NCBI GenBank assembly: GCA_016781485.1
Contig: JADDQH010000013.1
Span: forward strand, 1 to 48,886
From: Chloroflexota bacterium
Lineage (GTDB): Bacteria; Chloroflexota; Limnocylindria; Limnocylindrales; CSP1-4
Direction: 5' to 3'
DNA length: 48,886 nucleotides
This document shows positions 1,416-48,886 of this stretch, piece by piece; the first letter of the stretch is position 1; each line of letters opens with the position of its first letter. Both the position numbers and the translations under genes were made by a program. The notes beneath the pieces were generated by a model that was given only the letters and a program-made list of their open reading frames with translations, searched no databases and was not told where the DNA came from.

Positions 1416-3130
1416 TCGTCGGCCCGATCGAGGCCGGCGTACCGGATCAGCCCAAGGCCCGACTCTACCGTTCCCAACAACCCCTCGCGGCTCAGCGCCC
1501 AGCTCTCGCCATAGCGCAGCGGGACCAGCGGCACTTCGCGCTGGACGATCGCCTGGGCGGCGGCGTAGTGGCGTTGCTGCTCTACGGGATCCTCGGTCGC
1601 CGCCGCAGCCGCCAGCAGCGTGTCGTATGCGGCGTTGCTCCAGCCGCTGTAGTTGTTGCTGCTGCCCGTCTCGAGCAGCAAGCCGAGGAAATCATGCGGC
1701 GCGGGATAGTCGGCCACCCACGAGAGCGCCCAGAATGCGGGGACGTCGCCGCGGTCGAGACGCGCGAAGTACTCATCGAAGGGCATCGACTCGACGCGGA
1801 CCTCCACGCCCAGGACCTCCTTGAGTTCGCGCGCGATCGCCTGGTCGTACCCGTACCCGGACGTCACGAGCGTGACCGGCGGAAAGCCGCGGCCGCCCGG
1901 ATAGCCGGCGGCGGCGAGTTCCGCGCGAGCTCCCGCCGGGTCGTAGCGAGGCGAGAAGTCATCGGTGGGGCGAGCCGGGATGCCTTCAGGGACCAGGGAG
2001 GTCGCAGGGTCTGCGGAGGCGTCCGCAAGGCGGACGAGTCGGTCCCAGTCCACCGCCCCCGCGAAGGCGCGCCGCACCCGGGCATCGTCGAAGGGCGGTC
2101 GCGTCGTATCGAAGCCGTAGTAGTCGACCGACCAGGTGTCCGCGCGCCGGAGCTGGGGCCCCAGGTCGTCGTGATAGCGCAGCCAGGCCGCGTCAGCGGC
2201 GCTCACCCCGGTGTAGTCGAGGTCGCCGTCCTGGAATGCCAGGACGGTGCTTTCGCCCTGGAGGTCGGTGACGACCTCGATGCGCTCTATCGGTGGCGGC
2301 CCCGCCCAGTAGTTGCCGTTCGCCTCGAGGTGGATCCGCGTCTCGTCCTGAGAGGTCGGGAGATACGCCCCGGACACGACGAGGTTCGGCGGCAGCTCCG
2401 GACCGGGGGCCGGTCGCTTCGGCGGCACGACCGCCAGCGAGGGTGACGCGGTCACGGCGAGGAAATAGGTCGCCGGTCGGCGGAACTCGACCACGACCCG
2501 CCCCTCCTCCGCCCGCATCCCGACGCCCTCTCGACCGATCTCGCGCTTCTGGTAGGCGACCGCGCCCTTCACGTCGGCGAGAAGACTCGCGAGCGGCGAC
2601 GGCGTCTCGGGGTGGATCAGACGGAACCAGCTCTCGACCACGTCCTGCGCCCGGATCGGCGTCCCGTCGCTGAACTTGAGGCCACGGCGCAGCTCGAAGG
2701 TGATCCGCTGTCCATCCGCCGCGACCACCCAGTCCCGTGCCAGCGCCGGCTGTACCTGCGCGTCGGCATCAAAGGCGGTCAGTCCTTCGTAGACCTGCGC
2801 AAGAGTCGTCGCGGTCCCGGCGTCACCCTGGCGCGCGGGATCCCACGTGGACGGGGCGGCACCGATGATCCGAACAGGATCGCCTGCTGCGCGAGCGACC
2901 GCGACGGGCGAAGGATCACGGCCGGGTGCGGCACCGCTCTGCCTGTACCCGCCGAGCGCCGCCACTCCCGTGATCGCGACGGCGAGTCCGAGACTGAGGA
3001 CGGCCGTTAGGGCGCGGCGACCGGCGGATGCGGTGATCGGCTGGAGATCGTCCGGCGTCGAGAGGTCCGGCGGCGGCACAGGTGGGACCCCAGGCGGGCG
3101 CGGCCGCGCGTCGGGGGGTGGTTGGGACAC
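1412..3130 (-). CDS. ABC transporter substrate-binding protein, peptide/nickel family (SBP_bac_5)
   Basis: VRIIGAAPSTWDPARQGDAGTATTLAQVYEGLTAFDADAQVQPALARDWVVAADGQRITFELRRGLKFSDGTPIRAQDVVESWFRL is typical of the family; N-terminal TM segment. Confidence 0.9.
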   Translation of the reverse strand: MSQPPPDARPRPPGVPPVPPPDLSTPDDLQPITASAGRRALTAVLSLGLAVAITGVAALGGYRQSGAAPGRDPSPVAVARAAGDPVRIIGAAPSTWDPARQGDAGTATTLAQVYEGLTAFDADAQVQPALARDWVVAADGQRITFELRRGLKFSDGTPIRAQDVVESWFRLIHPETPSPLASLLADVKGAVAYQKREIGREGVGMRAEEGRVVVEFRRPATYFLAVTASPSLAVVPPKRPAPGPELPPNLVVSGAYLPTSQDETRIHLEANGNYWAGPPPIERIEVVTDLQGESTVLAFQDGDLDYTGVSAADAAWLRYHDDLGPQLRRADTWSVDYYGFDTTRPPFDDARVRRAFAGAVDWDRLVRLADASADPATSLVPEGIPARPTDDFSPRYDPAGARAELAAAGYPGGRGFPPVTLVTSGYGYDQAIARELKEVLGVEVRVESMPFDEYFARLDRGDVPAFWALSWVADYPAPHDFLGLLLETGSSNNYSGWSNAAYDTLLAAAAATEDPVEQQRHYAAAQAIVQREVPLVPLRYGESWALSREGLLGTVESGLGLIRYAGLDRADE

Positions 3131-3247
3131 GATGTCAGTCTAGCGACTGGGCCCGATGTTCCCCGAGCAGCCGCCGGGCTGCTGATGACGACAGTCTCAG
3201 CATGTGCTTCCCACGACCGATCGCGATCTCGGCGAGTTCTGCCATCG

Positions 3248-17521: not shown

Positions 17522-17597
17522 TGGCGCCCCCGGACGGACTCGAACCGCCGACGCAGGCCTTAGGACGGCCTCGCTCTGTCCACTGAGCTACGGGGGC
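17522..17597 (-). tRNA. tRNA-Arg(CCU), CCA encoded
   Basis: GCCCCCG-UA-GCUCAGUGGACAGAGC-G-AGGCC-GUCCUAA-GGCCU-GCGUC-GGCGGUUCGAGUCCGUC-CGGGGGC-G-CCA folds as a cloverleaf; loop GU-CCU-AA. Confidence 0.95.
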
Positions 17598-29277: not shown

Positions 29278-31536
29278 TCAGTGGACGACGGGCAGACTCC
29301 GACCGTTGGAGCCGTCCTTCGGCAGGCTCGCGGCGAGGATCTCGGCGATGTCCTGGACGCCGACTTCGCGCGCGTCCGCGCGGGTCTCGCCCCAGCTCGC
29401 GAGGCCGTCGCGCATCATCACGAGGCAGAAGGGACAGGCGGTGGCGACTCCCTCGGCACCCGTTTCCAGCGCCTGCCTCGAGCGCTCCGTATTGATCCGC
29501 GTCCCGCGGTCCTCTTCCATCCACATCCGGCCCCCGCCGGCTCCGCAGCAGAAACTGTTCTTGCCGTTCCGCTCCATCTCGCGCAGCTCCACGCCGGGGA
29601 CGGCGGAAAGCACCGCACGCGGCTGCATCACGACGTCGTTGTAGCGGGTGAGGTAGCACGAGTCGTGGAACGTCAGCGAGCCCGAGCGGGCGTTGTCCGG
29701 CCTCAGCCTCCCCTCCTCCACCAGCCGCGACAGGTAGACGCTGTGGTGCACCACCTCGTAGTGGCCGCCGAACTGCCCGTACTCGTTCCCGATGGTGTTG
29801 AAGCAGTGCGGGCAGGCCGTGATGATCGTCCTGGGGCGGTAGTTGTTGAGGGTCTCGACGTTCGCCGTCGCAAGCATCTGGTAGACGTACTCGTTCCCCA
29901 TCCGCCGGGCGGGATCCCCTGAGCAGCTCTCCTCCTGGCCGAGCACGGCGTACCGGATCCCGGCGGCGTTGAGGCAGGTCACGACGGCACGCGCGACGCG
30001 GCGGTTGCGGTCGTCGAAGGAGGCGGCACACCCGACCCAGTAGAGGCAGTCGAGTGCTCCGACCGCGTCCCGCCCACCCTCGGCGACGACCTGCGCGGCC
30101 GTTGGCACCTCGAACGGGAGTCCCTTCGTCCAGTCCAGTCGCGTGGTCTGCGGCTGTCCCCAGATGTTCGAGTAGCGCTCCATGTTCGTGAACGACGCGG
30201 TCAGCTCGGGCGGGAACCGGCTCTCCTCCAGCACGAGGTTCCGGCGGAGGCCCATGATCTTGTCCACGTGCTCGATGAGCACTGGACACGCCTCGACGCA
30301 GGCGCCGCACGTGACGCAGTCCCAGACCGCGTCGTACGGGATCGCGGTATCGACGATCGGCTTGGCGAGCGCCTCCGCCGCCACCGAGCGCGCGCCCGCG
30401 AGGCCGTTCCCGTCGCTGATCGTCGTGGCCCTGCCGGCCGACGTACCGCCCGTGACGGCGGTCGGGCCCGATCCCACTGGTCCATCCGCGGCTGGTAGAG
30501 CGCTCGGGTCCGGCGCGAGACGGCTGGCTCCGTCGGCGGGTCGGATGAGCGGGATCTCGGGGAGGCGGAGACCCGGGACGAGTGGCACGCCGTGCTCGGC
30601 CTCCACCGTCATCTCCCGGATGCCCATGATCATCGTCTTCGGGTTGAGCGGCTTCCCGGTCGCCCACCCGGGGCAGGCGGCCTGGCAGCGGCCACACTCC
30701 GTGCAGGTGAAGCCGTCGAGCAGGTCCTTCCAGTGGAGGTCCTCGATCGTCTTGACCCCGAAGCGCGCGGTCTCGGCCTCCAGGTCCATCGGCTGGAGCT
30801 CCCCGCGCGGACGGAGACGACGGAACGCGGTGTTGAAGAAGACCGTGACGATATGGAGGTGCTTGGAGCGAGGGAGGTAGACGAGGAAGCCCGCGACGAG
30901 CCCGATGTTCGCCCACCAGGACAACGCGAACAGCGGTTGCAAGAGATCAGGCGGCACCAGCCGCCCGACCAGACCGGCGAGCGGGGCGGCCACCACTGCC
31001 CACGCGGCGTCCGGGTCCCCGAAGCGCGCGATCCGGAAGGCCTCCGCGAGGATCTCGGTCGATACGACCCCGCCGATGAGCAGCAGGATCGTCAGCCCAT
31101 CGCGGGAGAGCGTCAGCCGCTTCGGCCTGCTCACGAGCCGGCGGAACAGCGCGTAGCCGACGGCGACCAGCACGCCCAGAGCGAGCACGTTCTGGAGCGT
31201 GATCAGGAGCCTCCACAGCCAGCCGTCGAACGGCCAGGCGAGGACCGCGTGGACGAGCCCGAACGTGACGCGGTCCGCCGTGCCGACGGTCAGGATCACG
31301 AAGCCCCAGAAGATCGCCGCGTGGAGGAGACCCGCACGGAGGTCGGTGAACATCCGGACCTGCGCCAGCGAGTACACGATGAGCGAGCGCAGCCGTGACT
31401 CGGGGTGGTCGGTCACGGTGACCGGCTGGGCCGTGGCGAAGACCCGTAGATGGCGAGCCATCTGGAGTGCGAAGATGACCGCGGACACAGCGAACAGAAC
31501 GGGCGCGAGGGGGTAGAGCGGGACCTGCTGGAGCAT
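29278..31536 (-). CDS. Membrane-bound (Fe-S) heterodisulfide reductase-like oxidoreductase (candidate ETF:quinone oxidoreductase)
   Basis: N-terminal multi-TM, CTECGRCQAACPGW and CVTCGACVEACPV clusters, CCF-type cysteine motifs (ESCSGDPARR, CCGAGGGRMWMEE). Confidence 0.88.
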   Translation of the reverse strand: MLQQVPLYPLAPVLFAVSAVIFALQMARHLRVFATAQPVTVTDHPESRLRSLIVYSLAQVRMFTDLRAGLLHAAIFWGFVILTVGTADRVTFGLVHAVLAWPFDGWLWRLLITLQNVLALGVLVAVGYALFRRLVSRPKRLTLSRDGLTILLLIGGVVSTEILAEAFRIARFGDPDAAWAVVAAPLAGLVGRLVPPDLLQPLFALSWWANIGLVAGFLVYLPRSKHLHIVTVFFNTAFRRLRPRGELQPMDLEAETARFGVKTIEDLHWKDLLDGFTCTECGRCQAACPGWATGKPLNPKTMIMGIREMTVEAEHGVPLVPGLRLPEIPLIRPADGASRLAPDPSALPAADGPVGSGPTAVTGGTSAGRATTISDGNGLAGARSVAAEALAKPIVDTAIPYDAVWDCVTCGACVEACPVLIEHVDKIMGLRRNLVLEESRFPPELTASFTNMERYSNIWGQPQTTRLDWTKGLPFEVPTAAQVVAEGGRDAVGALDCLYWVGCAASFDDRNRRVARAVVTCLNAAGIRYAVLGQEESCSGDPARRMGNEYVYQMLATANVETLNNYRPRTIITACPHCFNTIGNEYGQFGGHYEVVHHSVYLSRLVEEGRLRPDNARSGSLTFHDSCYLTRYNDVVMQPRAVLSAVPGVELREMERNGKNSFCCGAGGGRMWMEEDRGTRINTERSRQALETGAEGVATACPFCLVMMRDGLASWGETRADAREVGVQDIAEILAASLPKDGSNGRSLPVVH

Positions 31537-32201
31537 CAGCCGGAGCCCGTGGGCGGGAGCTCTCTGGGCGGCCCCGAGAGGATCGACCCCGGTTCGGCGC
31601 CGCTGCTCCCACCCCCCGTGTCGTCCCGTTCGCCGCTCTCGGGCCTGTCCGCGGCGTTTCGGTCACGGCCGGGGTCATCACCTCCGGTCGTGTCGTCATC
31701 TCCGTGCCGGCCCGAGTCGTCGGCTGCGGCGCCGGCCAAAGGCGGGTGCGGACCCGCGTCACCCCCCAGCGTCGCGAGGGCGTGATCGAGGAGCGGTGTG
31801 ATGGCCTCGAACGATTCGACCGCCCCGCGCTCGCTGCCGGGTAACGCCACGACGAGCGTCCGACCGAGGACGCCCGCCAGCGAGCGGGACAGCACCGCAA
31901 AGGGGGTCGATCGTCGGCCCTCCGCCCTCATCACTTCGCCGAACCCCGGCACCTCGTAGTCGAGTAGTTCATGGAGCGCCTGAGGGGTGACGTCGCGAGG
32001 CGCGAGCCCCGTGCCTCCGGTGCTCACGACGAGGACGTGGTCGCGAGCAGCGCCACGGACCGCGGCAGCGATCAAGCGACGCTCGTCCGGCACGAGGCCG
32101 CGGGTCACGTCGAAACCCAGCGCCGTCAACCGCGCGGCGAGCGCAGGACCACTCGAGTCGGTCCGGACCCCATGCGTGACGCCGTCACTGATCGTCAGCA
32201 C
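31536..32201 (-). CDS. MoaB/MogA-family molybdenum cofactor protein with disordered C-terminal tail
   Basis: LTISDGVTHGVRTDSSGPALAARLTALGF, VVSTGGTGLAPRDVTPQALHELLDYEVPGFGEVMRAEG. Confidence 0.88.
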   Translation of the reverse strand: MLTISDGVTHGVRTDSSGPALAARLTALGFDVTRGLVPDERRLIAAAVRGAARDHVLVVSTGGTGLAPRDVTPQALHELLDYEVPGFGEVMRAEGRRSTPFAVLSRSLAGVLGRTLVVALPGSERGAVESFEAITPLLDHALATLGGDAGPHPPLAGAAADDSGRHGDDDTTGGDDPGRDRNAADRPESGERDDTGGGSSGAEPGSILSGPPRELPPTGSG

Positions 32202-32231
32202 GAATGCCCTGCGGATCCCAGTCCTCCTCGG

Positions 32232-32879
32232 TCAACCCGTCCGCTTCGGTCCGCGGAAGCCCCTGGGCCGTGTCGTTCCCGACCGGCCGGCCGGCCGGCG
32301 CACGCCGGTGCGAGCCGGCCGACTGCCGCTCTCCGATCCCCTCCCGTCACCGTGGACCTCATCGCTCGTGTCGTCCGCCCTGCGCCAGTCGCCCGAACGG
32401 CCGCCCGACTTCTCGAGCAACCGGACGGTCCTGATCTCGATCCCACGGTCTACGGCCTTGAGCATGTCATAGATCGTGAGCGCGGCCACCGACACCGCTG
32501 TGAGGGCCTCCATCTCGACGCCCGTCGGCGCAACCGTCGCGGCCCTCGCCTGGACGATGAGCGCACTCGCCGCCCGGTCGGGCCTGATCTCCACCGTCAG
32601 GTCGGTGAGCGGGATCGGGTGGCAGAGCGGGATGAGCTCCGCCGTCCGCTTGCCGCCCATGACTCCCGCGAGCTCGGCGACGGTCAGCACGTCACCCTTC
32701 GGGTTCAGTCCGTCGATCACGAGGCTCAACGTCTCCTGGTCGACAGTCACCTCGGCCTCCGCGACCGCGCGGCGCGGTGTCGACTGCTTCTCGCTCACGT
32801 CGACCATGCGCGGCCGGCCGCTCCGGTCCACGTGGGTAAGGCGTCGCCGGTCGGCGCGCGTCCGCGGCTCGTGCATCAA
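32232..32879 (-). CDS. moaC: Cyclic pyranopterin monophosphate synthase MoaC
   Basis: MVDVSEKQSTPRRAVAEA, GGKRTAELIPLCHPIPLT, GVEMEALTAVSVAALTIYDMLKAVDRGIEI. Confidence 0.95.
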   Translation of the reverse strand: MMHEPRTRADRRRLTHVDRSGRPRMVDVSEKQSTPRRAVAEAEVTVDQETLSLVIDGLNPKGDVLTVAELAGVMGGKRTAELIPLCHPIPLTDLTVEIRPDRAASALIVQARAATVAPTGVEMEALTAVSVAALTIYDMLKAVDRGIEIRTVRLLEKSGGRSGDWRRADDTSDEVHGDGRGSESGSRPARTGVRRPAGRSGTTRPRGFRGPKRTG

Positions 32880-32888
32880 TCGATCGCC

Positions 32889-34199
32889 TCAGCAGTCATG
32901 GTCCAGCTCCCAGACCTCCACCTCGGTGCCTGCCGGCAGGCCCTCGTGCTCCTCGGGGATGACTGCCAGACCGTGGGCGAGTGCGAGCGCCGAGAGGACG
33001 TGCGATCCCTGACCGCCCGCGAGCCTGGCCACTCGGCCATCGGGTCGTTCCGGGTCCGGCTCGAGGGCGACCCGGAGGAAGGCACGGCGTCCCGCCGACT
33101 TGGAAACGGGCTCGGCGAGACGAGCGGTCAGCCGCCGCCTCCGGAACGGGTCGGCGTGACCTGCGAGTACCCGGAGCACGGGCCGGACGAACAGCTCGAA
33201 CGTGACGAAGCTGCTGACCGGGTTCCCGGGCAACCCGAACAGAAGGACGTCGCCCTCGCGGTGGGCTCGAGGCGCGCGCCCGAACGCGAGCGGCTTGCCC
33301 GGTTGCACCGCCACGCGCCACAGGTCCATCCGGCCGACCGCGTCGAACGCCTCCTTCACCACATCGCGGGCGCCGACGGAGACCCCGCCGCTGACGACGA
33401 CGACGTCGGCCCAGGAGAGCTGCTCCCCGATCGCGGCAAGGACCTCCCCGAGCGTATCTGGCAGGGGCGGGAGCGTCCGCACTTCTGCCCCTGCGGATCG
33501 CGCCTGTGCCGCGAGCGATGGAGAGTTGCTGTCATGGATCTGCGCCGCGCCGAGAGGGCGACCGACCGGGACCAGCTCATCGCCTGTCGACAGGACGGCC
33601 ACCCGCGGTCGACGATGGACGGGCACGAGAGCGTGCCCCGTTGCTGCGAGCAGGGCAACGGCTGCAGGACGGATCGATTTCCCCCGGTCGTGGACGCGGT
33701 CGCCTCTGTGCACATCGCTCCCAGCCCGGCGGACGTGCGCGCCTCGCTCCGCGGGCTCGCGGACGGCGACGACATCAGGAAGCTCGGCGATCCCCTGTTC
33801 CGCGTCCGTCTCCTCGAGCGGTACGACGGCGTCGGCTCCCGCCGGGAGCACCGCACCGGTGAGGATCCTCATCGCGGTGCCGGGACCGACACCACCGGCG
33901 GGAGCGTGGCCCGCGGCGACGTCGCCAGTGACCGTAAGGAGGACGGGGCGATCAGGGTGAGCACCGCGCACGTCTTCCGCCCGCACCGCGAACCCGTCCA
34001 TCGCCGTGTTGTCCCAGGGGGGGACGGTCACGAGGGCGTCGAGCGGGTCCGCGACCACGAGCCCGACTGTGTCCTCGAGCGGCATCGATTCGACCGGCAA
34101 CGGGTGGAGGCCATCGAGCATCCGCTCCAGGGCCGCCTCGAGCGACAGGAGCACGCCGCCAGCGGACACCCCGGACCCTGTCGGCGTCTCGACGACCAC
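32889..34199 (-). CDS. moeA: Molybdopterin molybdenumtransferase MoeA
   Basis: VPPWDNTAMDGFAVRAEDV, GTAMRILTGAVLPAGADAVVPLEET, VVVSGGVSVGARDVVKEA, LFGLPGNPVSSFVTFELFVRP; GTG start at 34199. Confidence 0.95.
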   Translation of the reverse strand: MVVETPTGSGVSAGGVLLSLEAALERMLDGLHPLPVESMPLEDTVGLVVADPLDALVTVPPWDNTAMDGFAVRAEDVRGAHPDRPVLLTVTGDVAAGHAPAGGVGPGTAMRILTGAVLPAGADAVVPLEETDAEQGIAELPDVVAVREPAERGAHVRRAGSDVHRGDRVHDRGKSIRPAAVALLAATGHALVPVHRRPRVAVLSTGDELVPVGRPLGAAQIHDSNSPSLAAQARSAGAEVRTLPPLPDTLGEVLAAIGEQLSWADVVVVSGGVSVGARDVVKEAFDAVGRMDLWRVAVQPGKPLAFGRAPRAHREGDVLLFGLPGNPVSSFVTFELFVRPVLRVLAGHADPFRRRRLTARLAEPVSKSAGRRAFLRVALEPDPERPDGRVARLAGGQGSHVLSALALAHGLAVIPEEHEGLPAGTEVEVWELDHDC

Positions 34200-34201
34200 G
34201 A

Positions 34202-35368
34202 CTACGCCGCGAGCTGGGCCCGGGCGCGCAGGGCCCGGAACACTCCGTCCCGCGTCAGCAACCCGAGAAGCCGACGCCCCGTCTCCGAGTCGACGACGGG
34301 GATCGCGCTGACGCCTGCCTCTTCGAAGCGGCTGACCGCATCCCACAGCGGCTGTCGCGCGGTGATCGTGGCCAGCCCTTCCCCGCGGCTCATGACGTCG
34401 GTGACGCGCGTCATCGGCCAATCGGAACGCGGCACCTTGCTGACTTGACCGATCTCGATGGTGCCCACGAGGTCGCCATCCATCGTCACCGGGTAGAAGC
34501 TCGCCTGCCCGGAGAGGAGGTGCTGGTCGACGAGGGTATCGAGCGTCAGGTTCGGGCCGACGGCGGGGACGTCACGCTCCATGACGTCATCCACCGTGAT
34601 CCCCTCTACGAGCTTCTCGACCGCCACCCGGCGATAGCTCGTTTCGGCGGCCTGATTCAGGAACCAACCGATGAACGCGAGCCATAGCCCATTGATCCAC
34701 AGCCCGTTGTTCGCGTCACCGTTGAGGACCTGAAGGAACCCGTACGCGATCAGGAGGTACGCGAACGCTCGACCGACGAGCGTTGCGATCCGGGTCGCAC
34801 GCACGAAGTCCTTGGTGACCCCCCAGACGAGCGAGCGGAGGAGGCGCCCTCCATCCAGGGGGAAGCCCGGGATGAGGTTGAACAGTGCCAACAACATGTT
34901 GCTGCCACCGAGCAGGAATCCGAGTCCTGCTACGCCCTGGATCACCTCGTCGCGCGCGTTAGAGGCGGTCGCACCGAGCGTGAAGAAGACGCCCGCAAGG
35001 ACCAGGCTGGACAGCGGCCCGGCGACGGCCACGAGTGCTTCGCTGCGCGGGTTCGGCGCCTCCTGCTCGAGGTTCGCGGCACCTCCGAAGATGAACAGGG
35101 TGATCTCGCTGACCTTCATCCCCAGCCTGCGCGCGACCAGTGCGTGGGCGAGCTCGTGCACGATCACCGACCCGAAGAACAGCCCAGCCACGAGCGCGGC
35201 CACGACCCAACGGACGCCTGGCGAGAGGGGGAACGTGATCGGCGATCCACGGCTGCCGAGCAGGAACTGGACGAACACCAGGACCAGCGCGAAGACGATG
35301 AACCAGCTGACGTGGACGAGGATCCGAACGCCGAGGATGTGGCCGATCGGGATGGCGCCGCCCCTCAC
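34202..35368 (-). CDS. Site-2 protease (M50) family metalloprotease with CBS domains
   Basis: FGSVIVHELAHALVARRLG (HExxH), NLIPGFPLDGGRLLRSLVW, CBS pair at C-terminus; GTG start overlaps the upstream stop. Confidence 0.93.
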   Translation of the reverse strand: MRGGAIPIGHILGVRILVHVSWFIVFALVLVFVQFLLGSRGSPITFPLSPGVRWVVAALVAGLFFGSVIVHELAHALVARRLGMKVSEITLFIFGGAANLEQEAPNPRSEALVAVAGPLSSLVLAGVFFTLGATASNARDEVIQGVAGLGFLLGGSNMLLALFNLIPGFPLDGGRLLRSLVWGVTKDFVRATRIATLVGRAFAYLLIAYGFLQVLNGDANNGLWINGLWLAFIGWFLNQAAETSYRRVAVEKLVEGITVDDVMERDVPAVGPNLTLDTLVDQHLLSGQASFYPVTMDGDLVGTIEIGQVSKVPRSDWPMTRVTDVMSRGEGLATITARQPLWDAVSRFEEAGVSAIPVVDSETGRRLLGLLTRDGVFRALRARAQLAA

Positions 35369-36093
35369 GCTGGACCTCCCTCTCCGAGCGTCTGCAGTCG
35401 ATCCGCCCCGCGCCTCCCCCACCACCAGGCGGCGATCCCGGCGGTGATCGCGAGCGCGGCGAGGGCGGAGGCCGTCAGCTGCCAGAACGCGGTCGGATAG
35501 AGCTGGACGAGCCGCTGCGCGCGTGGGTCGAATGCCCAATTCCCGCCGGGGAAGAAGATCCGATGGAACAGCACGAACAGTGGCTCGAAGGCAACGAGCC
35601 CGATCAGCCCGACGACGGCCAGCACAGCCGCGAGCGTCGCACCGCCGCGGCTCATCGCACGCCAGACCCACGCCTCACGCCCTGCCCACGCGACGGCGAG
35701 CGCGAGCGCGAGGACGCTCACGAGGACGGCCACGAGGAACGCCCAGAGCACGACGCGAACGTCCTGCAGGTGCGACGCTTCGGAACGGTCGTAGAAGGGC
35801 ACGGAGCCGTCGGGCGCGGGGAACGCGAACGTCCCGGGCCCGAAGAGCACCTCGGAGACGGTGCGGTCAGAGAGGTGGTGGACCTGGGCGGACGGTAGCC
35901 CGAGGATCTCCGCGGAGCCGGCGTAGTCGAGCGCGGGATGGAGGTAGAGCGGCAGAAGGAGGATCAGGAGGGACGCGCCCAGGATCGTCAGGGCGGTCGA
36001 GAGTCCGATTGCCACCGCGAGCAGGCGCACGACGACGTTCTCCCTCGCCTCGCGGCCGGGAACGGAAGTGGCAGGCGCAGCGATCGTCCTCAC
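35365..36093 (-). CDS. TIGR01906/DUF1461 family membrane protein
   Basis: EPLFVLFHRIFFPGGNWAFDPRAQRLVQLYPTAFWQ signature with flanking TM segments. Confidence 0.8.
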   Translation of the reverse strand: MRTIAAPATSVPGREARENVVVRLLAVAIGLSTALTILGASLLILLLPLYLHPALDYAGSAEILGLPSAQVHHLSDRTVSEVLFGPGTFAFPAPDGSVPFYDRSEASHLQDVRVVLWAFLVAVLVSVLALALAVAWAGREAWVWRAMSRGGATLAAVLAVVGLIGLVAFEPLFVLFHRIFFPGGNWAFDPRAQRLVQLYPTAFWQLTASALAALAITAGIAAWWWGRRGADRLQTLGEGGPA

Positions 36094-36103
36094 GCCGCCG
36101 AGC

Positions 36104-36493
36104 CTACTCCTCCACGAGCGTCTGGGCCTGCTCCCACCAGCCCTCGACCCGCTGCCGGTCCGGCGGATCCAAGCCGAGTACTCGTGCGGCATCGTTGAGG
36201 CGCGTCTCGAGCTCTTCCGCGCTGATCGCGAGGAGGTCGGACAGGCCGAGGATCCCGGCCTGCGTGAACAACGCCTGCTCTTCCGCACCGAACGTGGCCA
36301 GGTTGAGCAGGAGCGCCTCGTCACGCCACAGGTTGATGTCATTGGTCGTCGCGTCGATCTGGTCGGCGAGGTACTGGCGTCGCCTGGACGTCTCGGAGAC
36401 CTCGAGCAGGAGTCCCGTCGTGAAGATGCCCTGCCGCTCCAGGCGTTGGAGGTAGATGAGCGGGGGTCGCTGCAGCTGCTCGATCGGTGGCAA
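36104..36493 (-). CDS. DUF4332-like helix-hairpin-helix protein
   Basis: IEQLQRPPLIYLQRLERQGIFTTGLLLEVSETSRRRQYLADQI...LGLSDLLAISAEELETRLND. Confidence 0.65.
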   Translation of the reverse strand: MPPIEQLQRPPLIYLQRLERQGIFTTGLLLEVSETSRRRQYLADQIDATTNDINLWRDEALLLNLATFGAEEQALFTQAGILGLSDLLAISAEELETRLNDAARVLGLDPPDRQRVEGWWEQAQTLVEE

Positions 36494-36508
36494 GTACGCG
36501 CCCTCGTC

Positions 36509-36955
36509 CTACGCCTGCTCGAGGGTCGCCTGGACGCTCAGCTCCACGTTGTTCTTGAGCGCCTGCGAGATCGGGCAGTTCTCCTTGGCGGCCTCGGCCG
36601 CGTCGCGGAACGCGGCGTCATCTGCGCCGGGTACGCGACCGCGGACCGTCAGCAGGCTCGAGACGACCCGCCACCCCGGCTCGAGCTTGTCGAACGTGAC
36701 CTCCGCCCCCACCTCGAGCCGTTCCGCGGGCGTCCCGGCCTTTGCCAGGTTGTTGGAGAGCGCCATCGAAAAACACGCCGCGTGGGCTGCGGCCAGCAGC
36801 TCCTCGGGGCTCGTCCGTCCGCCCGGATCCTCTGTCCGTGACCCCCAGCTCACGGGCATCGAGCTGAACCGCTCGCTCGTGCCCGAGCTCACCTCACCGG
36901 TGCCGGTCTGGAGGTCTCCCTGCCATACCGCCTGTGCGCGTCGGATCTGTGCCAT
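36509..36955 (-). CDS. OsmC family peroxiredoxin
   Basis: TSPEELLAAAHAACFSMALSNNLAKAG...ENCPISQALKNNVELSVQATL; start MAQIRRAQAVW at 36955. Confidence 0.93.
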   Translation of the reverse strand: MAQIRRAQAVWQGDLQTGTGEVSSGTSERFSSMPVSWGSRTEDPGGRTSPEELLAAAHAACFSMALSNNLAKAGTPAERLEVGAEVTFDKLEPGWRVVSSLLTVRGRVPGADDAAFRDAAEAAKENCPISQALKNNVELSVQATLEQA

Positions 36956-37038
36956 CGACCCTCGTCCTCGAAACCTTCGCCCTCGCGCCGCTTCCCCCGA
37001 CGGCCGTTTCAGCGCCCATCCTCCCACAGCCGCACCGG

Positions 37039-38640
37039 TCAGGTCAGCGCGCCGCCGGCACCGGGTGCTCGAACGCGATCGGCGCTTGTCTCCGCCCGTG
37101 GATCCTCGGCTGAGCCGAGTGCTCGGCCGGTCTCCCTGATGAGCTCCCACGCCTGCTCCACGTGGTGCGCCTCCGTCCGGATGTTCCCGACCGACAGACG
37201 GAGCGTGAAGCGACCGTTCAGTCGTGTGTGCGAGATGAAGACCGCGCCTGTCGAGTTCACGCGCGCCATCAGCGTTTCGTTCAGCGCGTCGAGCTCTCCC
37301 GCGATCTCCGCGTCATCCTCCCGGCCTAGGTAGCGGCGCGGGCGCCACCGGAAGCAGACCGTCGAGAGCGGCGCGGGAGCGAGCAGCTCCGCCTCGTCCT
37401 CGCCCTCGACCCACCCGGCGAACCGGCGAGCGAGCTGGATATGCGCGCGCAGCCGTGCGCGCAGCCCCTCCATCCCGAAGTAGCGCAGCAGCAGCCACAT
37501 CTTCAAGCCGCGGAACCGCCGCCCCAGCTGCGGCGTGTACTCGCTGAAGTTGCTGACCGGGCCGTCCCGGTCGAGCGTCCGCAGGTACTCCGGGACAAGC
37601 GTGAAGGCCGAGTGGACGACGTCCAGTCGCCGGCTCAGGAACAACGAGCAGTCGAGCGGGGTGAACAGCCACTTGTGTGGGTTGACGACGACCGAGTCCG
37701 CCCGTTCCCAACCTTCGAACAGACCTCGGTGCTCGGGCATCAACGCGGCGACTCCCGCGTAGGCCGCGTCGACGTGGAGCCACAACCCCTCGCGCTCGGC
37801 AACGTCGGAGATGAGCGAGATCGGGTCGACGGCGGTCGAGCTCGTCGTGCCGATCGTCGCGACGATCGCGCAGGGAACGAGTCCCCTGCGACGGTCCTCG
37901 GCGATGGCCTCTTCGAGGCGACGGACGTCCATCGCGAAGGCGGAGTCGGTCCGGATCCGCCGCACGCCCTGCCGTCCGATCCCCAGCGTCATCGCCGCCT
38001 TCTCGATCGAGCTGTGAGCCTCCCCTGACGCGTAGATCCGGAGCGGAGGGTGGCCCGCGAGCCCGACGGACGCCGCGTTCGCGTCCGCCTCGATCTCGTC
38101 TGCCAGCGCCGTCTGGCGCGCCGCCGCCAACCCGATGAGGCTGCTCGTGGAAGCCGTGTCGGTGTAGAAGCCCCCGAAGATGGGCGGCAGGCCCAGTCCG
38201 GAGCGCAGCCAGTCGACCGTGACCTGCTCGAGCTCCGTCGCGACCGGCGAGGTCCGCCACAGCATGGCATTGCCGACCAGCGTCGCCATCAGCATCTCAC
38301 CCAGGATCCCGGGGGCCGAACCGCTGCTCGGGAAATACGCGAAGAAGCCGGGATGCTGCCAATGGGTGACGTTCGGCTCCACGAGCGCCCGGTAGTCCTC
38401 GAGGATCCGTCCAAGGGGCTCGGGCGACTCGGGTGGCTCAGCAGGGAACCGCGAGCGGAGGTCGCCGGGCTGGACGTCCGGGAGGACCGGGTAGCGCTCC
38501 ACCCCCGCGACGTAGTCCGCCATCACGTCGGCGACCGCGTGGAGGGCCCGCCTGAACGACTCGACGTCCATGTCCCCGCTCCGCGACGCCTGGGCGCGGT
38601 CGAGCTCTCCGAACAGGGCCTGGAGGTCCGATCCCATCAC
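37039..38640 (-). CDS. PLP-dependent aromatic-L-amino-acid decarboxylase family protein
   Basis: LWLHVDAAYAGVAALMPEHRGLFEGWERADSVVVNPHKWLFTPLDCSLFLSR (HVDAAYAG, NPHKW). Confidence 0.93.
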   Translation of the reverse strand: MMGSDLQALFGELDRAQASRSGDMDVESFRRALHAVADVMADYVAGVERYPVLPDVQPGDLRSRFPAEPPESPEPLGRILEDYRALVEPNVTHWQHPGFFAYFPSSGSAPGILGEMLMATLVGNAMLWRTSPVATELEQVTVDWLRSGLGLPPIFGGFYTDTASTSSLIGLAAARQTALADEIEADANAASVGLAGHPPLRIYASGEAHSSIEKAAMTLGIGRQGVRRIRTDSAFAMDVRRLEEAIAEDRRRGLVPCAIVATIGTTSSTAVDPISLISDVAEREGLWLHVDAAYAGVAALMPEHRGLFEGWERADSVVVNPHKWLFTPLDCSLFLSRRLDVVHSAFTLVPEYLRTLDRDGPVSNFSEYTPQLGRRFRGLKMWLLLRYFGMEGLRARLRAHIQLARRFAGWVEGEDEAELLAPAPLSTVCFRWRPRRYLGREDDAEIAGELDALNETLMARVNSTGAVFISHTRLNGRFTLRLSVGNIRTEAHHVEQAWELIRETGRALGSAEDPRAETSADRVRAPGAGGALT

Positions 38641-38776
38641 CCGAGCAGTCTAGAGGGGGATCCGGTCGCCGCCGCCTTTTCCTGGTCGGCTTGCGGCATG
38701 TCGCGCGAGGCGCGGGGTCCGGCCGCGCGCAGGACCGCCGACGCGGCTCCGCATCTCGAACGGCTACAGTCGAGCC

Positions 38777-43811: not shown

Positions 43812-44042
43812 ATGAAAGAGACGCAGAAGTCCGCCAACAGCACCACCGCGATCGACAAGACGTTCGAGGGATTCACGGACGAGGAACGAGTCGCGATGAA
43901 GGAGCGCGTCCAAGAGCTGAATGCGGCCGACGCTCGGATCGTCGCGACACAGCGCCTGGCAGCAGGCCCGATCGAGGCGTCGGGAACGAGCGTTGCGAGG
44001 TCGTCCGCAAGGGGGTATCCGTCGCGGGTACGGGCAGTATGA
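43812..44042 (+). pseudogene. Truncated gene; N-terminus resembles DUF1801-family proteins
   Basis: MKETQKSANSTTAIDKTFEGFTDEERVAMKERVQELNAAD, then unrelated low-quality translation. Confidence 0.4.
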
Positions 44043-44078
44043 AGCCCCGGTCGGATCGGCCCGGCGGGGGCTCTTTCG
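44042..44078 (+). terminator. Possible Rho-independent-type hairpin
   Basis: agccccggtcggatcggcccggcgggggctctttcgt: agcccc/gggggct stem followed by a short T-containing tract. Confidence 0.35.
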
Positions 44079-44090
44079 TCCTCAGGGAGA

Positions 44091-44134
44091 TGGTCGGGGC
44101 GCCGCGATTCGAACGCGGGACCTCTTGAACCCCA
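44091..44134 (-). other. 3' half of a tRNA-Pro(GGG) (CCA, acceptor 3' strand, T-arm, variable loop, anticodon 3' half); likely integration att remnant
   Basis: Reverse complement TGGGGT-TCAAG-AGGTC-CCGCGTTCGAATCGCGG-CGCCCCG-A-CCA: perfect T-stem, but no matching 5' half upstream (CCAAAA instead of CTTGA). Confidence 0.8.
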
Positions 44135-44199
44135 TTTTGGCGCAGCCGTGCGGGAACGGCCCTTCTGAGCGTCCGTAACCGTCCACGGAGTCCACCTAG

Positions 44200-44241
44200 T
44201 ACCCTCAGTGTCCGGCGGTTTGAGGGTACGCCGTGAGGGTA
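44200..44241. repeat. TGAGGGTA repeat cluster (one inverted, two direct)
   Basis: taccctca 44200-44207; tgagggta 44221-44228; tgagggta 44234-44241. Confidence 0.8.
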
Positions 44242-44246
44242 GCGGG

Positions 44247-44720
44247 ATGGCTATGAGCGAGGCCCTCCAGGGCGCGATCGTCGGCGGTGCCATCGGCATC
44301 GCTGGCGCGCTTGTCGCCACGCTGCTCGCCTCGGAACTGACCCGCCGGCAGTGGCGCCGAGATCACGAGATTCGGCAGATTCAGAACACGGTCCGCATCC
44401 TGGATGCGTGGGAGGAACTCGCCGTCGCGTTGCTGGGTGGTGCTATCGGCGAGGAGGCGACGGGCGAACTCAGCGAGTGGCATCGACGGCGCATCACCGC
44501 CGCGGAGGCAAATCTGCGCGAGACGGACCGCATATGGGACTGGACGTTTAGCGTCATTCCCGGCGACGACGCGCGCCAGCTCCACCAACTGTGCCTCGAC
44601 GTCTCGGCGGGCCGAAGCCGGTCCCGTCGGGAACGTCACAGCGAGACCATGAGTCGGCTCGTCGAGCTACAGGGGAAGGTCCGCGAAGCGGCTCCGGAAC
44701 GTGTCCGTGAGCTCAGCTGA
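44247..44720 (+). CDS. Hypothetical single-TM protein with cytoplasmic helical domain
   Basis: MAMSEALQGAIVGGAIGIAGALVATLLASELTRRQWRRDHEIRQIQNTVRILDAWEELAVALLGG; coherent TM-plus-helix composition. Confidence 0.65.
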   Translation: MAMSEALQGAIVGGAIGIAGALVATLLASELTRRQWRRDHEIRQIQNTVRILDAWEELAVALLGGAIGEEATGELSEWHRRRITAAEANLRETDRIWDWTFSVIPGDDARQLHQLCLDVSAGRSRSRRERHSETMSRLVELQGKVREAAPERVRELS

Positions 44721-44868
44721 GGCGCCGGAGCGTAGGCCCTCGACGCTCCCCCTTTAGGAATGCCGCGAGCGCGACATCGCTGGGGGCTGACGGGACGCGC
44801 CGCGGGCCTTCTGAGCCTGGGCGCCGTGACTTACGCCACGCTTACGGTGGCACGCGTCTACGAGGCGC

Positions 44869-45660
44869 TTCGAGGTCGGCTTCGGGTACGACGCGCTCGG
44901 GCGGCGGACGCACCGGGACGTCGGTCAGATGCGCAAGGACTACTGGTACGACGAGACGGGTCTCACCCTCGAGACCGGTGCCGCGAGCACGACCTACCTG
45001 CGCGACCCCGACGGGCTGCTGCTGTCGAGCTCGACCAAGGTCACGCCCGACGTCGCGCCGGAAGCACCGAAGCTCGCGGACATGGAAGGCGTCGCCTCGC
45101 TCACGCTCGCTCCTGCCTTCCACAACTATGGCCGCGACCGGCTCGGCAGCATCACGTCGATGGTCGCGAGCGACGGCTCCGTCACGAACAGGTACCGCTA
45201 CGACCCCTGGGGCGAATCGATCGGCTCGTCCGGGAACGCCTACAACCCCTTCCAGTTCACGGGCACGTACAGGGATCCCGCGACCGCCCTCTACTAGATG
45301 GGGGCTCGTTACTACCAGCCATCGGCGGGGCGCTTCACCCAGCTCGACCCCCATCCGACGAAGCTACTAAGTATCAATCGCTACGCCTAAGCCAGATGTA
45401 ACCCGTCGAACTTTACGGACCCGACGGTGCTCCATGAGGAGGAGGGAGGTCCGGATTACATCGAGGCTTGCGTCGCGGGAGCTGCGGGTGGCGTAGCCAC
45501 CGCCGCGGTGGCGTGGACCTTGGCGAACTTTGGAGCACTTCTGTCGGCGGGGATCGCGGCGTTGCCGTCATGGGCAATTGCGCTGACAGCTACCATAATC
45601 GCGGCAATTGCTGGATGTGTGGGGAACGTTGTCATTCAGTTTGTCCAAGAAGTATTCTGA
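44869..45660 (+). pseudogene. RHS/YD-repeat core C-terminal remnant with two in-frame stops and a hydrophobic C-terminal tip
   Basis: FEVGFGYDALGRRTHRDVGQMRKDYWYDETG...GRDRLGSITSMVASDGSVTNRYRYDPWGESIGSSGNAYNPFQFTGTYRDPATALY*MGARYYQPSAGRFTQLDPHPTKLLSINRYA*ARCNPSNFTDPTVLHEEEGGPDYIEACVAGAAGG..., all in one frame. Confidence 0.88.
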
Positions 45661-45661
45661 C

Positions 45662-45844
45662 GTGGCGTTGCTCCTGAAGGCGTTCGTTCTAGCCACCGCT
45701 GCCGTGGTCGCCGCGGGAATATCGCTAAGGTTAGTGTCACCGTCAGCGGACCGAGTCTTGTCCGCCTTCATTGCGGGCGCGGCCGGCGGCGTTGTGGCCG
45801 TTGTTGTCCTGTCTCGTGAGCATCGGAAGCCGACGGGAACGTAA
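45662..45844 (+). CDS. Hypothetical small membrane protein
   Basis: VALLLKAFVLATAAVVAAGISLRLVSPSADRVLSAFIAGAAGGVVAVVVLSREHRKPTGT; starts immediately after the RHS-tip stop. Confidence 0.5.
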   Translation: MALLLKAFVLATAAVVAAGISLRLVSPSADRVLSAFIAGAAGGVVAVVVLSREHRKPTGT

Positions 45845-46043
45845 GCGTGCCCCCGTGACAGCTCTTCTTGATACAGCTGCGGTCGCCTTCGCGCTTCCAG
45901 CGTTCTACTCGCGGTGCACCCTATCAGGGGCACCGTGGACGTGTGAGATCGGGAGACATCCCTGGCGACGTGATTCGTCCATACCCCATCGATCACACCG
46001 CGTCATTTCAATGAGCTGGGTCGTTCAACGGCGACGACCGAAA

Positions 46044-46364
46044 TCACGTGGAGTCGTCGACCGCCTTGAGGAGTTCAAGAGCCGTCTCGAAGTAGCTGCG
46101 GCCGGGTCCCTCGAGGGAGGGAAGCGCCCGGGTGAGACTGGTGAGTACGTGTCTAAGCATCGTCTGATCGTCGGGGTCGAGCTCCTGTCGAGTGCAATAA
46201 TCGTGGAGGATCGTCGCCACGTCTCCATCCGCCAGCGCCAAGTCAACTCCCTCCACCTCCGCGTCCTCGGATCCCGGGGGATACTGCGCGCTCGGATAGG
46301 GCATGGCCAACCACTCCTGCCATCGCTGGCAGATGTCCTCGCTGCTCCACCGCATTCCGCCCAC
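46044..46364 (-). CDS. Hypothetical acidic protein (immunity-like size and composition)
   Basis: MGGMRWSSEDICQRWQEWLAMPYPSAQYPPGSEDAEVEGVDLALADGDVATILHDYCTRQELDPDDQTMLRHVLTSLTRALPSLEGPGRSYFETALELLKAVDD. Confidence 0.6.
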   Translation of the reverse strand: MGGMRWSSEDICQRWQEWLAMPYPSAQYPPGSEDAEVEGVDLALADGDVATILHDYCTRQELDPDDQTMLRHVLTSLTRALPSLEGPGRSYFETALELLKAVDDST

Positions 46365-46847
46365 CTTAGCGGTCCAAAGACTCAGTTCCCCAGGTACTCA
46401 GTGCGTTGGTTCCGACTCCAACTAAGGACCTTCGGCACACGCAGTCGCCGCGCACGGACGCCAGCGGCACACGGCGGTTCTCGCGGACATGGCGTGAGGT
46501 CCCGCACATACGCTTCACCCCGGGTTGGATAGAACGCATGTCCTGCCACTCCCGCGAAACCCGGGCTGGACCCTGAAGTTCGGGCCGAAGAGGAGTTCTC
46601 CGCCCTTCCACCTCGCGAGCGATGTGGCCGCGCGCCTTCGTCCGCTCGACTGCCGGTACCCGCACCACGCGTCCCGCCGCCGCCACCACGTCCGACGTTC
46701 CGGCCGCATCAGCAGCGTGAGTGCACCGTTCCGTCAAGGTCTGCTTTGGGCAATCGCGCTGTTACCGCGTACGCCCAGCCCGTGCGCCCCGACACGCGGC
46801 ACGCCCACCGCGCCGCGGAGGGCCGACCCAGTCGCCGGCAGGCAGAC

Positions 46848-47105
46848 CTAAAGGGTGAAGCGGGGCGAGTACCTCATCCGGATCGCGGAGTGCTTCCGGA
46901 CCACGGTGTACTTCAGCGCCTCCCGGACCGCCTCGTCGCCCACGGCGCGGAAGTCGTCGCTGTTGTCGCCCGCGGGGCCGACGATGACCGCGACCTTCGG
47001 TTCGGCGTCGTCCCGGTCCGCGTCGCCGCGCTCGTGGGCCGCGACGCCGGGCGGCGCGAACGCGGTGACGAGGAGCGCCAGGGTCGTGAAGGCGAGCGGG
47101 GACAC
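46848..47105 (-). pseudogene. Probable truncated secreted protein
   Basis: MSPLAFTTLALLVTAFAPPGVAA signal peptide, then DAEPKVAVIVGPAGDNSDDFRAVGDEAVREALKYTVV and abrupt end. Confidence 0.4.
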
Positions 47106-47111
47106 CTGATG

Positions 47112-47576
47112 TTAGATAAGACTCCTAGGCGGATACGCATCCAAGAGTCCGCTGACTTGTCGCTCCAGCGATCGGACGGCATCCACTCCCACTATCAGTT
47201 CCAGTTCCCACGCGTTCTCCGCACTCCGCCCGCCGCTTACTCGATCTGGGGTTTTTCCAACTGCACTGACCACGACCCGGAACTCATCCACGCTGCGACG
47301 CGCGACGGCGACCTCGAGCCATGGCTCGAGCGAGGCATAGGTTGCGGACAAGGAGGCGCCACTCAGCATCCGTACAAGTTCACGCTGGAAGCTGTTGAAT
47401 TCCGCCGATCGCAGCGAGGCAGAAGTTTCGAAGACAACGGCGGCGTTCTGTGCGATCGTAATTCGCGCCAGAAGCCAGTCTGCGTCGTGCCCAAATGCGC
47501 CGGGATGCTCCCTGCCAAAGATCACAACGGTCAGTTTGCCGCTCGAATTCCCGATTTCGATAGACACCGGACTCAC
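47112..47576 (-). CDS. Hypothetical protein, WapI-type immunity-like
   Basis: DADWLLARITIAQNAAVVFETSASLRSAEFNSFQRELVRMLSGASLSATYASLEPWLEVAVARR...NAWELELIVGVDAVRSLERQVSGLLDAYP; pattern resembles WapI-family immunity proteins. Confidence 0.5.
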   Translation of the reverse strand: MSPVSIEIGNSSGKLTVVIFGREHPGAFGHDADWLLARITIAQNAAVVFETSASLRSAEFNSFQRELVRMLSGASLSATYASLEPWLEVAVARRSVDEFRVVVSAVGKTPDRVSGGRSAENAWELELIVGVDAVRSLERQVSGLLDAYPPRSLI

Positions 47577-47624
47577 GGCTCACCATTCACGCTTCGGCAT
47601 ACGCGGGAGTTGCGTCTCGCCCGT

Positions 47625-47654
47625 GTGGCCGCATAACTCGTGGCCGCATAACTC
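47625..47654. repeat. 15-bp tandem duplication (gtggccgcataactc)x2
   Basis: Exact copies at 47625-47639 and 47640-47654. Confidence 0.95.
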
Positions 47655-47793
47655 GGGTTCTAACGACCACAGCCGAAGCCGCAGAGTATCCGGACCGAGC
47701 TCGCCGAGGAGATCGCCGAGGCGCACGGGCAAATCGTAGACGCGCACGGCTGCGCCGCATAACGGCGCCTGGAGCGGCGTCAGACCGGGAACT

Positions 47794-47819
47794 TGGTCGG
47801 GGCGAGAGGGTTTGAACCG
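47794..47819 (-). other. tRNA 3'-end-like fragment (tRNA-Pro-like acceptor and T-loop)
   Basis: Reverse complement CGGTTCAAACCCTCTCGCCCCGACCA; same CGCCCCGACCA end as 44091; the 5' side of the T-stem does not pair fully. Confidence 0.5.
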
Positions 47820-47866
47820 CCACTCCCAGGCCTCGGGTCGTCGTTCCAGCCGAGATCGCCGCCGGG

Positions 47867-48415
47867 TTACGCGGGGTCGCCTGACGCCGAGCGGTCGTCG
47901 GCCGCGGTAAGCTGGCGGCGCTCTGTGCGCGCTACGTCACGGACGAACAGATCCCGGCTCGAGCCGGCTGCGAAACCGGGAGCTGGCCCGACGCATCGGA
48001 ATCCAAGCCGTTCGTAGAGACGGCGAGCCGCCGCTCCTTCCGTGACGTCGGCACTGAAGGTTACGACCGCCACTGGCCCCGGTCCCGCCCTAGCCAAGAC
48101 GTATTCGACCAAGGACACGCCGACACCCATCCCGCGCCACCGTGGAGCGACGGCGAGCCACCCGATCTGCCGGCGTCCCGGACTCCACGTCACTGCACCC
48201 ATCAGTGGAGTACCGGGTGGACCATCGTCCTCGCGGACGACGAACGCGGTCGTCCTTTCGATGTTCCTGAGTAAGAAGCGGGCAAACGACGGGTCCGTCG
48301 ACATCGGCTCCCCGAAGAGAGCTTCCACCTCTGCGGACAACGCCAACCAGGCCGCTGCATCTTCGGGCACTGCTACGACAGGTCCCACCTCTGGCTCCTC
48401 AGATGCCTCGGGCAT
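47867..48415 (-). CDS. GNAT family N-acetyltransferase
   Basis: IGWLAVAPRWRGMGVGVSLVEYVLARA (acetyl-CoA loop) and AARRLYERLGFRCVGPAP. Confidence 0.88.
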   Translation of the reverse strand: MPEASEEPEVGPVVAVPEDAAAWLALSAEVEALFGEPMSTDPSFARFLLRNIERTTAFVVREDDGPPGTPLMGAVTWSPGRRQIGWLAVAPRWRGMGVGVSLVEYVLARAGPGPVAVVTFSADVTEGAAARRLYERLGFRCVGPAPGFAAGSSRDLFVRDVARTERRQLTAADDRSASGDPA

Positions 48416-48840
48416 TGGCGATTAGAGGTTCGGCCCACGACATCGGTATCGTTAGCGCTGAGATGCGGAAGTTAGTTGCCGCGGCGTACGCGGCCTTGAT
48501 CATTACGCTCATCGTCGTTGACCAAACCACCGGACTAGAGGGCGTGTTGCCGGGGTTGCTCATAGACGTCGTCAGGAGCAATGCCCCAGTTCTCGCGGCT
48601 GCGGTGATATGGCTGTGGGAGGAGGAGGTTCCTCTATCATTCGTCCTTGCGTCCTTCTTGCCGGCGTCGGCCGCATCAATGCTGGGTTACTTCATCCTAC
48701 CCAGCCCTCTGCGAGAACTGACGATCGCGATAGCCACGATCTTCCTTGCATCGCTTACCGTCTCGGAGCGAGCAGTGGTCCTCTGGATTCGATGCTTCCC
48801 GCGTTCGGTACAGCAACGGTGGTACAGCAACGGTGGATGA
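48403..48840 (+). CDS. Hypothetical multi-TM protein
   Basis: KLVAAAYAALIITLIVVDQTTGLEGVLPGLLIDVVRSNAPVLAAAVIWLWEEEVPLSFVLASFLPASAASMLGYFIL; hydrophobic segments; start site uncertain. Confidence 0.6.
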   Translation: MPRALAIRGSAHDIGIVSAEMRKLVAAAYAALIITLIVVDQTTGLEGVLPGLLIDVVRSNAPVLAAAVIWLWEEEVPLSFVLASFLPASAASMLGYFILPSPLRELTIAIATIFLASLTVSERAVVLWIRCFPRSVQQRWYSNGG

Positions 48841-48886
48841 GCCGACCGTCAGGTCGAGTGGCGTTTGTTGATCGCGGTGAAGGTTA

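Follow-up and report, generated by a model that had tools for sequence, protein, structure and literature searches.

A tRNA-Pro(GGG) 3′ fragment and the probable distal end of a tRNA-targeting genomic island in a Chloroflexota bacterium

Genes and features around the tRNA-Pro fragment

The DNA analyzed here (the window) is one entire contig of 48,886 bases, termed C88, from a 2.82-Mb draft genome that comprises 133 contigs and is ~88% complete. Near its right end, the minus strand of positions 44091-44136 reads AATGGGGTTCAAGAGGTCCCGCGTTCGAATCGCGGCGCCCCGACCA, which includes a GGG anticodon loop, a perfect 5-bp T-stem (CCGCG/CGCGG), and an encoded CCA. Specifically, these 46 bp are identical, from the anticodon stem-loop through CCA, to part of an intact tRNA-Pro(GGG) gene located in the same genome on contig C27 (positions 3064-3140). 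The identity begins at tRNA position 31, placing its 5′ limit within the anticodon stem-loop, and the bases upstream of the fragment differ from the 5′ half of the tRNA. An exact match of 46 bp cannot be due to chance. The only other genomic match to the fragment with three or fewer mismatches is to a different tRNA gene, on C6. ARAGORN and Rfam make no call at 44091-44136, as expected because only half of a tRNA gene is present. The single tRNA called in the window is a tRNA-Arg(CCT) on the minus strand at 17522-17597. An initial annotation of this locus, made from the window alone, had described 44 nucleotides of tRNA-Pro from U33 onward, with a perfect T-stem, an encoded CCA, and no 5′ half. 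The assignment and these features are borne out by the sequence and by the comparison with C27, and the start must be moved two bases before U33, giving 46 bp rather than 44.

Similarity to the intact locus continues past the CCA sequence. A 73-bp block (44064-44136) aligns with C27:3095-3167 at 93% identity and takes in the start of a terminator, such that 44064-44090 still resembles the DNA beside the intact tRNA. We assign 44042-44090 on the minus strand as the original downstream flank of tRNA-Pro, including its terminator hairpin at about 44042-44073. A terminator-like hairpin lies beyond the 73-bp block in both copies, with folding energies of -19.8 kcal/mol in the window and -32.3 kcal/mol on C27. 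Adjacent to this flank is a truncated gene (43812-44042); its first ~130 bp are 80% similar to the beginning of an intact C1 gene, and this similarity ends before the tRNA fragment.

Gene content differs on the two sides of the fragment. To the left are genes for PRC-barrel, CsbD-like, and MMPL-like proteins and a decarboxylase, and one block on this side (29281-38649, minus strand) gives tblastn matches downstream of tRNA-Pro in relatives with order and orientation retained, as would be expected of native chromosome. To the right, the DNA from 44137 to the contig end at 48886 carries an RHS-repeat protein fragment (44929-45297, plus strand; RHS_repeat PF05593, E 0.0034, which is below the curated cut-off), a WapI-like immunity protein (47112-47576, minus strand; PF24716, E 1.9e-13), a GNAT acetyltransferase (47867-48415, minus strand; PF13508, E 2.1e-10), and orphan open reading frames. 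GC content drops across the boundary from 69.1% to 64.9%. The proposal that gene content switches exactly at the fragment is broadly right.

The intact tRNA-Pro, its integrase, and the empty site in relatives

The intact tRNA-Pro on C27 is preceded by der and gpsA, which were named from their translated sequences and single-copy matches in relatives rather than by family search, and is followed by a tyrosine integrase gene reading towards the tRNA. The integrase (C27:3283-4335) begins ~140 bp from the tRNA and matches both Phage_integrase (PF00589, E 2e-21) and phrog_1 (E 9.8e-64). Its reading frame carries a one-base frameshift just before the catalytic tyrosine, with the remaining C-terminus readable in another frame, and this lesion is either genuine decay or an error in the consensus. 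Unless the frameshift is an assembly error, an island dependent on this integrase is probably immobile. Past the integrase, the contig continues to its end with primase-like, DUF3631, YgjP-like, type I restriction-modification, uracil-DNA-glycosylase-like, and resolvase genes. Elsewhere in the genome, on C6, C80, C119, and C28, tyrosine integrase matches adjoin full or partial tRNA matches, and tRNA-linked elements seem common in this organism.

A second feature is shared by the C27 locus and the window. The 9-mer GTACCCTCA occurs six times in the 2.82-Mb genome, and four of these copies are paired just inside the two boundaries. Two are at C27:3200 and C27:3212, 60-80 bp inside that end, and two are in the window at 44199-44207 (plus strand) and 44221-44229 (minus strand), 62-93 bp inside, with the near-copy TACCCTCA beside them at 44234-44241 (minus strand). 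The pairing was noticed post hoc; nonetheless, such a concentration at two predicted ends would be very hard to obtain by chance. Most simply, these sequences would be bound by a single integrase, with 44199-44241 as putative arm-type sites in the window, in which case both ends would belong to one integration system.

The arrangement that might have preceded integration is evident from related genomes. We compared the gpsA regions of 18 relatives, along with two loci around homologues of the PRC-barrel gene from the window. Of the 18 regions, 17 have tRNA-Pro(GGG) after gpsA, and no tRNA was found in the available stretch of the remaining one. Homologues of the left flank of the window lie downstream of the tRNA in 11 of these 17 relatives, and several of the other six end at a contig end. 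In eight, the decarboxylase or a neighbor of it begins 1.4-4.9 kb past the tRNA, with order and orientation conserved, and in three more the homologues lie further on. The genes concerned are the decarboxylase (37039-38640), followed by those at 36107, 35368, 34205, 32892, and so on. No homologues of the open reading frames in 44137-48886 were found downstream of tRNA-Pro in the relatives. Because of this gene order and the lack of accessory homologues, the ancestral chromosome most likely ran from gpsA through tRNA-Pro to the left flank of the window, and everything from C27:3141 to C88:44137 would be inserted DNA.

The initial annotation had anticipated an intact tRNA-Pro(GGG) with the same 3′ sequence and a neighboring tyrosine recombinase outside the window, and both are present on C27 in the expected orientation. 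It had also named two contrary observations, namely an intact tRNA-Pro with an unrelated 3′ sequence and relatives that are collinear over the whole region. Instead, the two 3′ sequences are identical over 46 bp, and in relatives the tRNA is followed by the left flank, with the accessory DNA absent. Its further suggestion that the element extends to higher coordinates, towards a reconstituted tRNA-Pro beyond the window, is likewise supported by the C27 tRNA and integrase and by the order in relatives, with the two ends located on different contigs.

Proposed integration at tRNA-Pro and its alternatives

We interpret 44091-44136 as the tail of tRNA-Pro(GGG) displaced by an integrated element, where the rebuilt tRNA would be the copy adjacent to the integrase on C27, and we assign this reading a probability of roughly 0.93. 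The data support the fragment as the distal attachment half-site (an attR-like core) and 44137-48886 as one end of an island. Under this model, recombination by an element encoding a tyrosine integrase would have taken place in the anticodon loop of the tRNA-Pro(GGG) gene lying on the chromosome between gpsA and the left flank of the window. Tyrosine integrases that target tRNA genes are known to use this loop as one of their crossover sites (PMC4383910). If the attP site of the element carried a copy of the 3′ part of the tRNA and its terminator, the gene would have been rebuilt at the proximal end, whereas the original 3′ part would have been displaced to the distal end and now resides in the window. 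The duplicated stretch reaches the terminator region of the tRNA, so the rebuilt gene would retain a strong terminator.

This arrangement is a standard tRNA-targeting genomic island of the ordinary kind, and the window carries its distal end. As in the islands described by Islander (PMC4383910), there is an intact tRNA gene, a displaced 3′ fragment of the same gene, a tyrosine integrase inside the island (C27:3283-4335), and a crossover centered on the anticodon. This island differs in that its ends are on two contigs, such that its length and closure are inferred, and in that its integrase is frameshifted near the end. The orientation of the fragment and its flanks fit the order in relatives, and the fragment, which is on a different contig from the tRNA, would then lie downstream of it in the same orientation. 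The Islander length range is 2 to 200 kb. C88 contributes 4.75 kb of island DNA and C27 contributes 21.7 kb, for a length of at least 26.4 kb, or ~47 kb if a third contig, C44 (20.5 kb), joins. C44 is probably the continuation of C88 because the last 32 bases of C88 (48855-48886, plus strand) are the first 32 of C44 and because further repeats are common to C44 and the right end of the window; the join itself is made by the 32-bp overlap. Searches with contig ends produced no link for C27 or C44 at their far ends. The integrase aligns over 97% of its length with tyrosine integrases of actinobacteriophages such as Mycobacterium phage ZM2, but with only 36% identity, and no phage structural genes were recognized among the island proteins tested. 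From a fragmented draft, both ends of an island have been mapped in a poorly studied lineage, and its integrase and likely arm sites have been identified.

A region built from more than one element is plausible because the window side is decayed and C44 bears repeats. An older element, of which 44137-48886 would be the remains, might have displaced the fragment, and the C27 integrase might belong to a younger element that later inserted into the rebuilt tRNA. The window side has RHS debris and few open reading frames with good codon usage, whereas the C27 side keeps long, open restriction-modification genes, and C44 differs in gene style and carries internal repeats. However, the same rare 9-mer is found at both ends, and 44091-44136 is the only tRNA-Pro 3′ fragment in the genome, albeit with the region between the C27 and C88 ends incompletely assembled. 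On balance, we regard such a two-step history as possible and lean against it.

An assembly artefact, in which C27 and C88 derive from different organisms or are chimeric at the fragment, deserves consideration in this draft, metagenome-type assembly. It is very improbable, given that gpsA and the left-flank genes are strongly matched in the same family and are neighbors there, that GC content is similar, and that flank and fragment are continuous within one contig. Least probable of all is that the fragment arose by decay of a duplicated tRNA-Pro to its 3′ part and the beginning of its downstream flank, since the identity is perfect and ends in the anticodon stem-loop, the intact copy has an integrase directly beside it, and, most strongly, relatives place the left flank of the window behind the intact tRNA.

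A repeat resembling the 3′ end of tRNA-Pro

The accessory part of the window also contains, at 47791-47869 on the minus strand, a sequence like the 3′ third of tRNA-Pro (nhmmer E 2.1e-16). It belongs to a direct repeat of ~85 bp that has 15 clear copies and runs in one direction per contig: one copy is on C88, four are on C44 (283-372, 852-938, 17720-17808, and 18600-18680), eight, plus one weak match, are on C102 (between 6772 and 26018), and two are on C85 (11078-11164 and 11929-12014). The repeats often flank single genes, and five copies terminate at CGCCCCGACCA, the 3′ end of tRNA-Pro, or within one base of it. We considered 47791-47869 as a second tRNA-Pro attachment fragment and dropped this assignment: the other copies share a 40-bp half that is not tRNA, together with a conserved reading frame and stop codon. 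This frame, on the reverse strand of the repeat, encodes a peptide tail of the form RGxEPPTPRPRIVLP...A followed by a stop, whose position is shared by most copies. Variation is mostly at third codon positions, with mean column entropies of 0.68 bits at codon position 1, 0.51 bits at position 2, and 1.01 bits at position 3.

The repeats might serve for recombination in a cassette system, other than an integron, on accessory contigs, mimicking the 3′ third of tRNA-Pro, separating single genes, and encoding a peptide tail, but we consider this function doubtful. The integron attC boxes RYYYAAC and GTTRRRY were not seen by eye at the repeat ends in alignments, and the repeat-bearing contigs C44, C102, and C85 have no Phage_integrase matches. 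The peptide tail has no match in Pfam, NCBIfam, or plasmids, the DNA pattern has no viral match, and a literature search found nothing. Across 100 sampled genomes of the family, the motif shows no amplification. Among the genomes collected in GTDB, the sole match is a contig matching part of C102, and the repeat appears to be lineage-specific and nearly confined to this genome.
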